Of a stretch of 64,000 bases of DNA, positions 54,759 through 60,272 are shown piece by piece. How positions within the stretch are numbered: position 1 is the stretch's first letter; every line of letters begins with the position of its first letter. A model generated the notes under the pieces. It saw only the letters and a program-made list of their open reading frames with translations, did no database searches and was not told the DNA's origin. The position numbers were made by a program, and so were the translations under genes. Origin of the DNA: Amycolatopsis methanolica 239 (GTDB lineage: Bacteria; Actinomycetota; Actinomycetes; Mycobacteriales; Pseudonocardiaceae); assembly GCF_000739085.1 (NCBI RefSeq), contig NZ_CP009110.1, positions 6,510,001 through 6,574,000 of the forward strand. The letters are read 5' to 3'.

Positions 54759-56224
54759 GTGGACGCCGACGTCGTCATCGCCGGAGCCGGACCGACCGGC
54801 CTCACCCTCGCTCACGAACTCGCCCCGGCCGGAGTCCGGACCGTGGTCGTCGAACCGCTGACCGAACGCGTCGAGCAGACCAAGGGCGGCACGATCCAGC
54901 CCCGGACCGCCGAGCTGCTCGAACAGCGTGGCCTGCTCGACGCCATGCAGGACCGGGCCCACGAACGCGAACCGGTGAGCGGTCATTTCGCCACCCTGCC
55001 GGTGCCGCTCGACTACTCGTCCTGGCCGACACGGCACCCCTTCCCCCTTTCCATCCGCCACCACCTCGTGGAAGAGGCCCTGGAACAAGCCGCCCTCGCC
55101 CGCGGTGCGGAGCTGCGGCGGGGACGGCCGGTCACCGGCGTCGCGCAGGACGCCGAAGGCGTCACGGTCACCGCTGGCGGCGACACGCTTCGCGCCCGCT
55201 ACCTCGCCGCCTGCGACGGCGCGCACAGCGCCGTCCGCAAGCCGCTCGCCCTGCCCTTCCCCGGCAGGCCCGGCACCTTCCAGGCCGTGCGGGCCGAGAT
55301 CCGGCTCGCCTCGGCGTCCGCGCTCGTGCCCCGGCGCGCCGGTCACATCAGCGCCCTGACCCGGCACGCCGGCGGCTACTGGTCGATGCTCGTGCCGGTC
55401 GGCGGCGACCGCTACCGCTTCACGTTCGGCCGCGAAGACCAGTCCGGCGCCCAGGGCCCGGTGACGGACGACGAGATCACCGACGCCCTCACCGCGGTCT
55501 ACGGCCAGGACACCGGGCTGGCAAGCGTCCTCACCGCGTCCCGGTGGAGCGACGCGACCCGGCAGCTGGAGCGGTACCGGCACGGCCGGATCCTGTTCGC
55601 GGGGAACGCGGCGCACATCCATCCGCCACTGGGCGGCCAGGGCCTGAACCTCGGCGCGCAGGACGCGGTCAACCTCGGCTGGAAGCTGGCGGCCACCGTG
55701 CACGGCTGGGCCCGGACGACCTGCTGGACACCTACCAGGAGGAACGGCATCCGGCGGCGGCCCGCGTGCTCCACCACACCTCGGCCCAGCGCGTGCTCGC
55801 CGTGCCGAACCCGTCCGATGACGTCGCCGCGTTGCGCGACATCTTCACCGACCTCCTGCGGCTGCCCGACACGAACCACTACCTGGCCGGGATGATGTCC
55901 GGTTTGGACGCTGCCGGCCGGGTGCCCTACGCCGACCTGCGCACCGGCGACGGAAGCACCCGCCTGTCGGCGCTCCTGCGCTCAAGCAACGGTCTGCTGC
56001 TCGACCTCACCGGCGGCCACCCACTGCCGCCGGGCTGGTCCGATCGCGTCGACCGCGTTCAGGCCGAACCGGACCACCAGCTCACCGAGTCCGCCGTGCT
56101 GATCCGGCCGGACGGCTACCGGTGCTGGACCGCGGACGGCGGCCCCCTGGACGCCGCGCTGACCCGGTGGTTCGGCGCTCCCGCCGACGACCAGCACGGC
56201 TCGGCCTCGCGCAACGCCGTATAA
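54759..56224 (+). pseudogene. FAD-dependent aromatic monooxygenase, single frameshift
   Basis: The first about 320 residues are a PHBH-type flavin monooxygenase: VDADVVIAGAGPTGLTLAHE (dinucleotide fold), the DG motif AACDGAHSAVR and the GD-like FAGNAAHIHPPLGGQGLNLG. Near 55700-55712, in GGCTGGGCCCGGACGAC, the frame shifts; the continuation PDDLLDTYQEERHPAAARVL and the full thioredoxin-like C-terminal domain lie one frame over, ending at 56224. One missing base restores a normal protein of about 488 residues. AGGAGG stands 4 bases before GTG 54759. The break could be real or a sequence error. A TetR is divergent upstream. Confidence 0.75.
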
Positions 56225-56232
56225 AGGAGGAC

Positions 56233-57870
56233 GTGACCGATGGCCCGTTGATCGTCCAATCCGACAAGACCGTGCTGCTCGAAGTCGACCACCCGATGGC
56301 CGACGACGCCCGGATCGCGATCGCCCCGTTCGCCGAACTGGAACGGGCCCCCGAGCACGTGCACACCTACCGCGTCACGCCGCTCGCGCTGTGGAACGCC
56401 CGCGCCGCCGGCCACGACGCCGAGCAGGTGGTGGACGCCCTGACCACCTACTCGCGCTTCCCGGTTCCGCAGCCGTTGCTGATCGACATCGTCGACACGA
56501 TGGCGCGGTTCGGGCGGCTGCAGATCACCAACAACCCGGCCCACGGCCTGGTCATGACCACGACCGACCGCGCGGTGCTGGAAGAGGTGCTGCGCAACAA
56601 GAAGATCAGCCCGATGCTGGGCACCCGGATCGACGACGACACCGTCCTGGTGCACCCGTCCGAGCGGGGCCGGCTCAAGCAGGCGCTGCTCAAGGTGGGC
56701 TGGCCCGCCGAGGACCTGGCGGGCTACGTCGACGGCGAAGCGCACCCGATGCAGCTCGCCGAGACCGGCTGGGGCCTGCGCGACTACCAACGGCAGGCCG
56801 CGGAGGCGTTCTGGGCAGGCGGTTCCGGCGTCGTCGTGCTGCCGTGCGGCGCGGGCAAGACGCTCGTCGGCGCCGCCGCGATGGCCCGCGCGCAGGCCAC
56901 CACCCTCATCCTGGTCACCAACACCGTCGCGGGGCGCCAATGGAAGCGCGAGCTGGTGGCCCGCACGTCCCTGACCGAGGACGAGATCGGCGAGTACTCC
57001 GGCGAGAAGAAGGAGATCCGCCCGGTCACCATCGCCACCTACCAGGTGATCACCCGCAAGTCCAAAGGCGAGTACAAGCACCTGGAGCTGTTCGACTCCC
57101 GGGACTGGGGCCTGATCGTCTACGACGAGGTGCACCTGCTGCCCGCGCCCGTGTTCCGGATGACCGCGGACCTGCAGTCCCGCCGCCGGCTCGGCCTCAC
57201 CGCGACCCTGGTGCGCGAGGACGGCCGCGAGGGCGACGTGTTCTCGCTCATCGGCCCCAAGCGGTACGACGCGCCGTGGCGCGACATCGAGGCGCAGGGC
57301 TGGATCGCCCCGGCCGAGTGCATCGAGGTGCGGGTGACCCTCACCGACAACGAGCGCCTGCTCTACGCCACGGCCGAATCCGAGGACAAGTACAAGCTCG
57401 CGGCCACCGCCCGCACGAAGATCCCGGTCGTGAAGTCCATTCTGGACAAACACGCCGGCGATCAGACGCTGGTGATCGGCGCGTACCTGGACCAGCTCGA
57501 AGAACTCGGCGCCGAACTGAACGCGCCGGTGATCCAGGGGTCCACGCGCAACAAGGAGCGCGAGGCGCTGTTCGACGCGTTCCGGCGCGGTGAGATCGAC
57601 AAGCTCGTGGTGTCGAAGGTCGCGAACTTCTCGATCGACCTGCCGGAGGCGACGGTCGCCATCCAGGTCTCGGGCACGTTCGGCTCCCGGCAGGAGGAGG
57701 CCCAGCGGCTCGGCCGGCTGCTGCGCCCGAAGGCCGACGGCAGGCAGGCGCACTTCTACTCGGTGGTCTCGCGGGACACGCTGGACACCGAGTACGCCGC
57801 GCACCGGCAGCGGTTCCTCGCCGAACAGGGCTACGCGTACTCGATCCACGACGCGGACGCCTACCTGTAA
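56233..57870 (+). CDS. XPB/ERCC3-type DNA repair helicase
   Basis: The 545-residue SF2 helicase begins VTDGPLIVQSDKTVLLEVDH, as in mycobacterial XPB proteins. It has the damage-recognition N-terminal region, Walker A LPCGAGKTLVGAAA (about residue 205), Walker B YDEVHLLPAP (about 297), motif III LGLTATLVRE, the RED-like motif REDGREGD, and motif VI QRLGRLLRPKADG. It unwinds DNA 3' to 5' and is thought to act in repair. AAAGGAGG lies only 2 bases before GTG 56233. The gene starts 8 bases after the monooxygenase, but a common function is not implied. Confidence 0.95.
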   Translation: MTDGPLIVQSDKTVLLEVDHPMADDARIAIAPFAELERAPEHVHTYRVTPLALWNARAAGHDAEQVVDALTTYSRFPVPQPLLIDIVDTMARFGRLQITNNPAHGLVMTTTDRAVLEEVLRNKKISPMLGTRIDDDTVLVHPSERGRLKQALLKVGWPAEDLAGYVDGEAHPMQLAETGWGLRDYQRQAAEAFWAGGSGVVVLPCGAGKTLVGAAAMARAQATTLILVTNTVAGRQWKRELVARTSLTEDEIGEYSGEKKEIRPVTIATYQVITRKSKGEYKHLELFDSRDWGLIVYDEVHLLPAPVFRMTADLQSRRRLGLTATLVREDGREGDVFSLIGPKRYDAPWRDIEAQGWIAPAECIEVRVTLTDNERLLYATAESEDKYKLAATARTKIPVVKSILDKHAGDQTLVIGAYLDQLEELGAELNAPVIQGSTRNKEREALFDAFRRGEIDKLVVSKVANFSIDLPEATVAIQVSGTFGSRQEEAQRLGRLLRPKADGRQAHFYSVVSRDTLDTEYAAHRQRFLAEQGYAYSIHDADAYL

Positions 57871-58019: not shown

Positions 58020-58484
58020 GTGATTTGGGCAGGAGTGTGCTTCGTCGTCGTGGTGTTCGCGGTCGCGGCCACGGCGATGTGGCGCCGTGCCCGTCGCTCG
58101 GAGGCGTCGGTGGCGCGCCGCCTGTCGCGGGTGTCGTCGTGGGTCGGCTTCGTGCTCGCGGCGGTGCCCAGCACGGTGTGGCTGGTCCTGTGGCTCTCCG
58201 GGGGTGAGCCGAAGGCCCTGATCGGTCTCGCGGGGCTGGTGCTGGCGGCGGCTCCGGTGGTCGCCGTGTACCGGTGGCCGGGCCTGGTCGTGCCGTCATT
58301 GGTCCTGTGTCTCCTGGCTTCGATGGGGATGGTTGTCGCCTGGCAGCACCTGTTCGTGTTGCTGCCTCTCGCGCTCGCGCTGACTGGCACCTGGCTGCTC
58401 GCCCTCGCCCTGCACGTGCGGTCCGGTACTCACGCAGATGCAGGCGAAACCCCAGTTCAACGGCGGGGTGCGACCCGCTCGTGA
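58020..58484 (+). CDS. Small polytopic membrane protein
   Basis: A 154-residue protein with four to five hydrophobic segments (WAGVCFVVVVFAVAATAM, WVGFVLAAVPSTVWLVLWL, LIGLAGLVLAAAPVVAVY, LVVPSLVLCLLASMGMVVAW, LFVLLPLALALTGTWLLALA), a basic loop after the first, and a short polar tail. GTG 58020 is the likely start. No family is recognised. It sits between XPB and the SOS-box region; the LexA boxes are downstream of it, not in front. Confidence 0.7.
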   Translation: MIWAGVCFVVVVFAVAATAMWRRARRSEASVARRLSRVSSWVGFVLAAVPSTVWLVLWLSGGEPKALIGLAGLVLAAAPVVAVYRWPGLVVPSLVLCLLASMGMVVAWQHLFVLLPLALALTGTWLLALALHVRSGTHADAGETPVQRRGATRS

Positions 58485-58502: not shown

Positions 58503-58518
58503 TCGAACACCCGTTCGA
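58503..58518. promoter_or_regulatory. Perfect LexA (SOS) box 1
   Basis: TCGAAC-ACCC-GTTCGA is an exact match to the actinobacterial SOS consensus TCGAAC-N4-GTTCGA. It lies 104 bases before the DUF4253 start, in the gap after the membrane protein gene. Confidence 0.8.
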
Positions 58519-58572
58519 CCGATCGGGTGAACCGGCGAAAACTAAATCTCGGGCCCGGAAACTGTCGTACCC

Positions 58573-58588
58573 TCGAACTACTGTTCGA
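58573..58588. promoter_or_regulatory. Perfect LexA (SOS) box 2
   Basis: TCGAAC-TACT-GTTCGA is a second exact match, centred 70 bp after box 1 and 34 bases before the DUF4253 GTG. TACTGT at 58579-58584 inside the box can serve as -10, with CTGTCG 17 bp upstream (58562), a partial match to the TTGTCR-type damage-inducible (PafBC) promoter of mycobacteria. Confidence 0.85.
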
Positions 58589-58621
58589 CCTCATCGACGC
58601 AGTCCATCCCGAGGAGGTCCC

Positions 58622-59398
58622 GTGACCACCGCCGCAACACCCGAGGAAAGCCTCGTCGCCGAGGTCCTCACCGACGCCGAACTGCCGCCCGGCCGCTGGA
58701 TCGGACTGATGTGGGTCTCCGACGATCCGCTGGCCGACCCCGGCCGGTACCGGGCCTGCATCGCCGGTTTCGACCGGTCGGGGTTGTGGCCCGTGCTGAT
58801 CCCGCACGACCCGCGTTTCGCCGCGACCGGCGAGGACTGGCTGACCGATCGCGGCCGTCTCGCGCCCGCCGTGCACCACGTCGGCAACTTCGATGTCGCC
58901 GCGACGCTGGCCCGGTGGTGGGACCCGTTCTGCTGCCCGGACGGCACCGGGTGCCTGCGGCCGTACAGCGCCGGTTTCCCCGGGCTGGCGAAGAAGTCCC
59001 AGCTGCGGGTGGACCCGCTCGCCGAAGCAGGCAACACCGGCTCGATCCTCGTCCGGCGCGCGCCCCACCGCCTCGGACTGGTGCCGGTCGAACGGCCCGC
59101 GGACGTCCCCGCCGCACTCGGCTGGACCGGCATGATCAAGTCCACGGACGAGGTCGCCGCGGTGTCGGCGGTCCTGCGCAGCTGGGAGGACCGGTTCGGG
59201 GCGACGCTCATCGTGCTCGGGTTCGACGAGCTGGAGCTTTCGGTCGCGGCGCCGCCGCGTAACCAGAACCGCTCGCTCGTCCTCGCCGCCGAGCACCGCG
59301 CGTTCAGCCTGCGCAGCTTCTCCGGGCAGCCGGGCACCCTCCGCGAGTACGCCGCGGGCCTGGTGCACCGGCGGCACTGGAGGTTCTCCTGGGACTGA
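58622..59398 (+). CDS. DUF4253 protein under SOS boxes
   Basis: The 258-residue soluble protein has the DUF4253 pattern at its C-terminus: LRSWEDRFGATLIVLGFDEL, ELSVAAPPRNQNRSLVLAAE, HRAFSLRSFSGQPGTL. The N-terminal part (GRWIGLMWVSDDPLADPGRY, RACIAGFDRSGLWPVLIPHD) is typical of actinobacterial members; a Cys-rich short loop CCPDGTGC is near residue 103. GAGGAGG is 5 bases before GTG 58622. The family has no known function. Two perfect LexA boxes stand directly upstream, so DNA-damage induction is likely. DUF72 follows after 19 bases. Confidence 0.88.
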   Translation: MTTAATPEESLVAEVLTDAELPPGRWIGLMWVSDDPLADPGRYRACIAGFDRSGLWPVLIPHDPRFAATGEDWLTDRGRLAPAVHHVGNFDVAATLARWWDPFCCPDGTGCLRPYSAGFPGLAKKSQLRVDPLAEAGNTGSILVRRAPHRLGLVPVERPADVPAALGWTGMIKSTDEVAAVSAVLRSWEDRFGATLIVLGFDELELSVAAPPRNQNRSLVLAAEHRAFSLRSFSGQPGTLREYAAGLVHRRHWRFSWD

Positions 59399-59417
59399 CG
59401 GAGTTGAGGAGGTCACC

Positions 59418-60272
59418 ATCGCCGAAATCCGGGTGGGCACCTCGGGCTGGCGGTACCCGCCGTGGCGGGGCACGTTCTACCCCAAGGGCCTGGCGCAGCG
59501 CCGCGAGCTGGAGTACATCTCGCGGCAGCTGAACTCCGTGGAGATCAACGGCTCGTTCTACTCGCTCCAGCGCCCGGAGCGGTACCGGGCCTGGGCGGAG
59601 CAGACGCCGGACGACTTCGTGTTCGCCGTGAAGGGCGGTCGCTTCATCACCCACATGAAGCGCCTGGCCAGCGCGGAGACACCGCTGGCGAACTTCTTCG
59701 CATCGGGGGTGCTGGCGCTGGGCCACAAGCTCGGGCCGATCCTCTGGCAGCTACCCGCGAACTTCGCGTTCGAACCCGGACGGTTCGCGGAGTTCTTCGC
59801 GAGCCTGCCCCGGGACACCCGGGCGGCCGCGGAACTGGCCCGCAAGCACGACGACAAACTGAAGGGAGAGGCCCACACCGAAGCCGGGAAGAACCGGCTC
59901 CTGCGCTACGCGCTCGAACCAAGGCACCCGAGTTTCTCCTCGGACGAGTGCCGGAAACTGTTGCAGGACAACAACATCGCACTGGTGGCGGCCGACTCGG
60001 CCGACACCTGGCCGAGTTTCGAGGAGGTGACCGCGGACTTCGTCTACGTCCGCCTGCACGGCGACGAGGAGCTCTACGCGAGTGGCTACACCGACGAGGC
60101 CCTGGAACGGTGGGCAGGAAAGATCCGCCGCTGGCGGCGCACCGGCGGCGGGAAGACGCGTGACGTGTACGTCTACTTCGACAACGACATCAAGGTGAAG
60201 GCGCCCGGGGACGCCATCGCGCTCGCGACCCGGCTGGGGGTCACGAGCCGCCCGATCGACCTGCCGTCCTGA
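59418..60272 (+). CDS. DUF72 (YecE-like) TIM-barrel protein, apparent ATC start
   Basis: The protein has the DUF72 marks: IRVGTSGWRYPPWRGTFYPK, EYISRQLNSVEINGSFYSLQ, FVFAVKGGRFITHMKRL, ILWQLPANF, YALEPRHPSF and YVRLHGDEELYASGY. The fold resembles TIM-barrel endonuclease IV-like enzymes; function unknown. The family opening (AEIRVGTSGWRYPP) requires a start at ATC 59418, which has GAGGAGG ending 5 bases upstream; the first conventional start, GTG 59433, removes the first strand residues and has no ribosome site. It is second in the SOS-box operon. Confidence 0.87.
   Translation: MAEIRVGTSGWRYPPWRGTFYPKGLAQRRELEYISRQLNSVEINGSFYSLQRPERYRAWAEQTPDDFVFAVKGGRFITHMKRLASAETPLANFFASGVLALGHKLGPILWQLPANFAFEPGRFAEFFASLPRDTRAAAELARKHDDKLKGEAHTEAGKNRLLRYALEPRHPSFSSDECRKLLQDNNIALVAADSADTWPSFEEVTADFVYVRLHGDEELYASGYTDEALERWAGKIRRWRRTGGGKTRDVYVYFDNDIKVKAPGDAIALATRLGVTSRPIDLPS

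Follow-up and report, generated by a model that had tools for sequence, protein, structure and literature searches.

Fused PafBC and LexA elements conserved in front of a DUF4253 gene downstream of XPB in Amycolatopsis methanolica

The locus and its promoter elements

The window, by which we mean the whole stretch of 64,000 nucleotides of the Amycolatopsis methanolica 239 genome that was analyzed (6,510,001 to 6,574,000 of a 7.24-Mb contig), contains a gene for the DNA repair helicase XPB (56188 to 57870, + strand; NF045503, 865 bits; reading frame open from the GTG at 56122) followed on the same strand by a small open reading frame (ORF) of 154 codons (58020 to 58484), a gene for a 258-residue DUF4253 protein with a GTG start (58622 to 59398), and a gene for a DUF72 protein (59418 to 60272). 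The DUF4253 protein matches PF14062 over residues 150 to 258 (8e-31, 106.7 bits against a cut-off of 27), is 97% identical to its counterpart in A. tucumanensis, and is preceded by the Shine-Dalgarno sequence GAGGAGG (58611 to 58617, + strand); 755 bp, including the small ORF, separate it from the end of XPB. The small ORF has no match in Pfam, NCBIfam, or PADLOC, has the look of a membrane protein, and changes fast; 11 of the 58 named loci have relatives of it, 38 to 92% identical. The DUF72 protein (PF01904; 5e-72, 242.8 bits against a cut-off of 25.3) follows after a very short gap and has its own Shine-Dalgarno sequence, AGGAGG (59407 to 59412, + strand), but no in-frame ATG, GTG, or TTG occurs at the right distance between 59407 and 59435. 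An ATC stands there, as it does in several other Amycolatopsis species; the first codon is probably this ATC, at 59418, or else the GTG at 59433, and the use of an AUC start codon is thus a possibility raised by the sequence.

Between the small ORF and the DUF4253 gene lie two perfect LexA (SOS) boxes, box 1 (TCGAACACCCGTTCGA, 58503 to 58518) and box 2 (TCGAACTACTGTTCGA, 58573 to 58588), neither of which is assigned a strand. Both are exact copies of TCGAAC-N4-GTTCGA, as an earlier reading of the sequence alone had stated, their starts are 70 bp apart, and they are the only perfect sites in the 64-kb window. A PafBC-type upstream motif, CTGTCG (58562 to 58567, + strand), matches TTGTCR at five of six positions and is followed, after a spacer of exactly 11 nucleotides, by a -10 element of the form TAnnnT (TACTGT, 58579 to 58584, + strand) that sits wholly inside box 2. 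The PafBC consensus in the literature, tTGTCRgtg-8nt-TAnnnT (PMC5656591), is spaced in the same way. The sequence-only reading had described a partial TTGTCR-type promoter overlapping the second box; the overlap is there, but "partial" undersells an element that is well formed and exactly spaced. A strict scan for sigma-70-type promoters between 58300 and 60500 found none.

The genome encodes both LexA (PF01726, 92.8 bits, at 5142408), whose gene has three one-mismatch LexA boxes upstream, and PafC (145.7 bits, in a search that covered PafC). Perfect LexA sites number 10 in the 7.24-Mb genome, against 1 for the reversed-pattern control and 0.13 expected from the base composition of the window. 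The eight sites outside the locus include those of imuA' (NF058630) and of an Rv2578c-family radical SAM gene (NF038135); one of the remainder lies 5' of a HEPN_SAV_6107 gene, and the others are near ORFs without a family match. PafBC motifs number 31, against 10 in the reversed control; 30 of these sites were followed up as loci. Of the 15 genes scanned behind them, nine resemble genes of repair or replication (recA, recN, dinB, mfd, a gyrase-B type, a beta-clamp-like protein, an RNase_T exonuclease, a ResIII helicase, and a PDDEXK nuclease), and six show no obvious link to repair. Within this genome, the motif is a marker of genuine damage genes. The LexA box of recA begins 73 bp before its PafBC motif, and the two do not overlap.

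Some further sites in the genome are recorded here in their own right. The HEPN_SAV_6107 family gene, near 5198824, has one perfect and one one-mismatch LexA box upstream. Identical stretches of 3,016 bp surround perfect LexA boxes near 6444540 and 6482362, 37.8 kb apart; this duplicated segment carries an SOS box of its own, next to a short ORF. A protein resembling the beta clamp of DNA polymerase III is encoded directly behind a PafBC motif (L159:1533-2606). On the minus strand, a gene without a Pfam or NCBIfam match, situated behind an apparent topA (L010:674-1480), is preceded by a perfect LexA box and then by CTGTCG-N11-CACACT, and it is possibly another dual-controlled gene.

Conservation of the elements in relatives

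One search of genome contigs gave 58 named loci, 59 with the window. In 54 of the 59, the stretch just upstream of the DUF4253 gene contains a PafBC motif together with a LexA box of no more than one mismatch. The two are fused as in the window in 47, and in 7 the box comes immediately after the PafBC promoter, an arrangement also seen in two sampled genomes. The five loci without the elements are one whose contig begins inside the gene (L091) and four distant ones (L098, L100, L101, and L102) that show no XPB in the DNA examined. The pattern NTGTCR-N11-TAnnnT (first base T in 29, C in 21, and A in 4) and a LexA box with at most one mismatch are present in every one of the 54 clade loci that include upstream DNA, an outcome in favor of the sequence-only reading, which had named absence of the boxes from relatives as a refuting result. 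At least two LexA boxes with no more than one mismatch occur in 36 loci, and at least one perfect box occurs in 33. Box 1 has the same position in three loci, and in Prauserella a one-mismatch box is similarly placed in four of five loci; only the closest species share the exact distance between two perfect boxes.

Many of the 59 loci belong to close Amycolatopsis relatives and are not independent, but loci titled Kibdelosporangium, Actinocrispum, and Actinosynnema retain the elements as well, with proteins that share about 36% identity across the aligned region. An XPB-DUF4253 locus titled Rhodococcus rhodnii NRRL B-16535 has Kibdelosporangium-like match values and may be mislabelled. Across 604 kb of loci, 90 LexA boxes with no more than one mismatch fell in the zone from -150 to +20 and 4 fell elsewhere; for PafBC motifs, the corresponding figures were 54 and 1. 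When the 47 fused promoters were aligned, mean identity was 97% in the motif columns, 63% in the spacers, and 59% in the flanks.

An even sample of 60 genomes of the family (Pseudonocardiaceae) contained 28 with a DUF4253 match, and 30 DUF4253 loci were examined. Both elements were present in 13, 12 of which had XPB within the 1.5-kb flank, and the other 17 had no LexA box, one of them having a lone PafBC-like motif 263 bp upstream. In a tree of 49 proteins, which contains several long branches according to a program warning, all 28 controlled DUF4253 proteins fell on one side of a branch with support of 99/99. The fused pattern occurred 12 times in the 60 genomes (reversed control, 0), 11 times before a DUF4253 gene of this clade; for the twelfth site, the nearest called ORF is of GNAT type, 240 nucleotides on. 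Among 200 genomes of the order, it was found at 38 places in 29 genomes. All 16 sites within the Pseudonocardiaceae are 5' of DUF4253; of the 22 outside, 14 were examined, and 13 of these precede DUF222 genes and 1 precedes an exonuclease (RNase_T) gene. On the strength of this survey, the promoter type is not unique, yet among the sampled Pseudonocardiaceae it belongs almost exclusively to DUF4253.

The sequence-only reading had also taken tandem perfect boxes to be the mark of a core SOS gene, and within this family that gene is imuA'. Two perfect boxes with 40 to 68 bp between them were found in 4 of the 60 sampled family genomes, including the present one, where the arrangement occurs once; the other three loci encode a protein that is 63 to 67% identical, over about 135 residues, to ImuA' of this genome.

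Proposed regulation and role

The elements, their geometry, and their conservation are observed, and their arrangement suggests that the DUF4253 gene of this clade probably belongs to the DNA damage response. PafBC is described in excerpts of PMC11804915 as being activated by single-stranded DNA (ssDNA) and as letting the housekeeping polymerase use promoters with a -26 motif, and the same source gives RecA on ssDNA as the trigger of the SOS response. We propose that transcription would start from a PafBC-dependent promoter whose -10 element sits in a LexA box. In the undamaged cell the gene would be silent, with LexA on the -10 element and PafBC inactive; after damage, ssDNA would activate PafBC through its WYL domains and, by way of RecA, would bring about the removal of LexA. 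The gene would fire only when both events had taken place, so that the promoter would act as an AND gate with two inputs, each a measure of ssDNA. Because the box covers the -10 element, LexA would exclude the polymerase even with active PafBC, and because no ordinary sigma-70 site was found, removal of LexA would be insufficient without PafBC. Where the box lies beside the promoter rather than on it, the logic may differ. DUF72 would be cotranscribed where it is close behind, as here, and would be a frequent but dispensable companion. Joint control by LexA and PafBC is already known, since an operon of Mycobacterium tuberculosis lies under SOS boxes together with a PafBC motif, according to an excerpt of PMC8151990. 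We regard repression by LexA, activation by PafBC, and the AND logic, all reasoned from known biochemistry, as very probable, and the explanation as a whole, in which a dual-controlled damage gene behind an AND gate encodes an accessory to XPB-linked repair, as reasonably likely.

The product itself offers little to go on. An AlphaFold2 model of the DUF4253 protein (mean pLDDT, 81.6) had no match in the PDB or among the viral models of BFVD at an E value of 0.001 or better, and our searches found neither a solved structure of a relative nor, in the literature, a functional study of DUF4253, although an excerpt of PMC11184937 states that most predicted models of the family contain a knot, and the domain is also named in a Bacillus genome paper. 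With no fold match and no solved relative, the position downstream of XPB is the sole functional clue. XPB is upstream in 52 of the 54 box-bearing loci, at distances from 57 bp to 3.9 kb (less than 1 kb in 33); of the two exceptions, one is on a contig that starts close upstream (L082), and the other keeps the promoter and has no XPB in the DNA examined (L060). The helicase had earlier been placed just upstream, and upstream it is, but near rather than always adjoining. No LexA box with up to two mismatches and no PafBC motif occurs within 350 bp upstream of XPB in the 47 loci that include this stretch; on that basis the helicase was rejected as a damage-promoter target, and the case for a joint XPB-DUF4253 module is weakened. 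That DUF4253 is an induced accessory in the XPB-linked processing of damaged DNA is a tentative guess from gene order. Similarly speculative is the broader notion of a new damage effector that has a fold unmatched in the PDB, is switched on solely after LexA has been removed and PafBC activated, and works with XPB as its partner in a pathway of repair or of stalled polymerases for which E. coli has no counterpart.

The strongest competitor, to which we give a substantial though minority chance, also makes DUF4253 damage induced but assigns it a role outside repair, in growth arrest, competition, or defence, and regards the proximity of XPB as incidental. The lack of a damage promoter at XPB and its distance of up to 3.9 kb fit this view, as do the presence of the same promoter type at HNH genes without an assigned role and the surroundings of other DUF4253 genes, which lie near metabolic genes (folD, transporters, and P450; one neighbor was scanned at 10 of 17 loci). 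One such neighbor has HHH_6 and OB-fold domains and was read as DnaE-like; overall, these mixed metabolic neighborhoods were rejected as a pointer to the function of DUF4253. The retention of XPB in 52 of 54 box-bearing loci stands against an incidental association, and membership of an anti-phage system was discarded as a candidate because neither DUF4253 nor DUF72 has a PADLOC match, while the XPB matches there are mostly to helicase models.

Less probable, in our estimation, is the arrangement that the sequence-only reading had put forward, in which DUF4253 and DUF72 form a repair pair in one induced operon; in the version weighed here, DUF72 would be a nuclease like endonuclease IV or UVDE. 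The gap between the genes, very short here, is less than 150 bp in 27 of the 59 loci, but in 18 DUF72 is more distant (and in one case a 68-residue fragment), and in 14, 12 of which have 5 kb of downstream DNA, it was not found; the pair is not supported as the unit. The family sample contained 30 DUF72 loci, 11 of them behind DUF4253; of the other 19, none has a LexA box or, in the 400 bp upstream, a PafBC motif. The DUF4253-DUF72 interval contained no box with one mismatch or fewer in 20 loci with gaps of more than 100 bp, two of which have a two-mismatch site; because of these box-free solo loci and box-free intervals, DUF72 was rejected as the controlled gene. In several Amycolatopsis clades (L057-L067, L077, and L081-L084), this interval has grown to about 300 to 1,150 bp, with partly repeat-like translations.

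For a nuclease role, there are the polar positions E, N, K, H, E-R-H, R-H-G, and N that DUF72 has in common with TM1631, a protein for which endonuclease activity was proposed from binding-site comparison and simulation (excerpt of PMC3828134), and the enrichment of DUF72 near polB2 with a fold close to UVDE (excerpt of PMC11791011, which mentions both DUF72 and LexA). The model of DUF72 matches the DUF72 structure 1vpq (TM scores, 0.73/0.80); among the best 50 of 1,381 fold matches, those outside DUF72 are mostly sugar isomerases and epimerases together with other TIM barrels, and neither endonuclease IV nor UVDE is present. The hint of a nuclease that had been drawn from the fold of DUF72 is weak by these matches, although the two sources point toward it, and a nucleic-acid role is possible on this analysis. 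Two of the 19 solo loci, in two family genomes, have XPB near DUF72, so that a helicase-DUF72 link exists on its own in the family. On 15 contigs of the class sample outside this genome that carry both genes, judged by eye, the two are never closer than about 110 kb, and a general actinobacterial pairing of XPB with DUF72, not seen outside the family, was dismissed. What is supported of the damage-response module, by the 54 of 54 loci, is the predicted damage control of the transcription unit; the DUF4253-DUF72 pair at its core is not supported.

Ordinary SOS control by LexA alone, with the PafBC-like motif as a weak vestige and a housekeeping promoter, repressed by LexA, driving the gene, strikes us as improbable. 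The tandem perfect boxes would suit it, as would the C in place of the first T of TTGTCR, found in the window and in 21 of 54 loci. Against it, all 54 clade loci with upstream DNA retain TGTCR-N11-TAnnnT, including the 7 with the LexA box elsewhere, and the sigma-70 scan was empty. That the fused element reflects chance, or DNA inherited without selection on regulation, can be set aside almost entirely in spite of the many close relatives, given the 10 perfect boxes against 0.13 expected (a disparity that, with promoter-zone enrichment and motif-column conservation, led us to reject a chance origin of the LexA boxes), the identity of motif columns relative to flanks, and the retention of the element in clade members at about 36% identity and its absence from other DUF4253 genes.

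Comparison with known systems

The preferred reading, a gene under both LexA and PafBC, bears on several matters. Actinobacterial DNA damage regulons hold many genes without an assigned function, and DUF4253 is one with a very clear signature in one clade; it offers a lead on the partners of bacterial XPB and on how the LexA and PafBC pathways combine at a single promoter. The fused promoter could also serve as a search key for further damage-response genes.

The same fused pattern precedes DUF222-HNH genes in other Mycobacteriales, at 13 of the 14 loci examined outside the family, but the protein family is unrelated to DUF4253. These fused promoters occur up to five times per genome, and the start codon is often close behind the box, giving a leaderless look. 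None of the papers searched joins 13E12, LexA, and PafBC, and the one found for DUF222 together with LexA and HNH deals with archaeal plasmids. The imuA'-imuB-dnaE2 mutasome has a translesion function; imuA' of this genome has a perfect LexA box, and three sampled relatives have the tandem perfect pair at that gene. The lhr-nei2 operon of Mycobacterium smegmatis also sets a damage-induced helicase beside a small repair gene, according to an excerpt of PMC11323726, but it involves other helicase and enzyme families, we claim no homology, and in our locus the partner, not XPB, bears the damage promoter. DUF72 of the window belongs to the same family as TM1631 (1vpq) by sequence and by fold, and the 19 DUF72 loci of the family that lack DUF4253 have no damage boxes, unlike the unit described here.

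Another parallel is mycobacterial recA, which, like the DUF4253 gene, is under both PafBC (promoter P1) and LexA (promoter P2), as described in excerpts of PMC11804915 and PMC5656591. There, the two promoters are separate, whereas at DUF4253 the LexA box covers the -10 element of the PafBC promoter. Judged by its promoter sequence, DUF4253 is a new member of the predicted damage regulon, with a layout that differs from that of recA.
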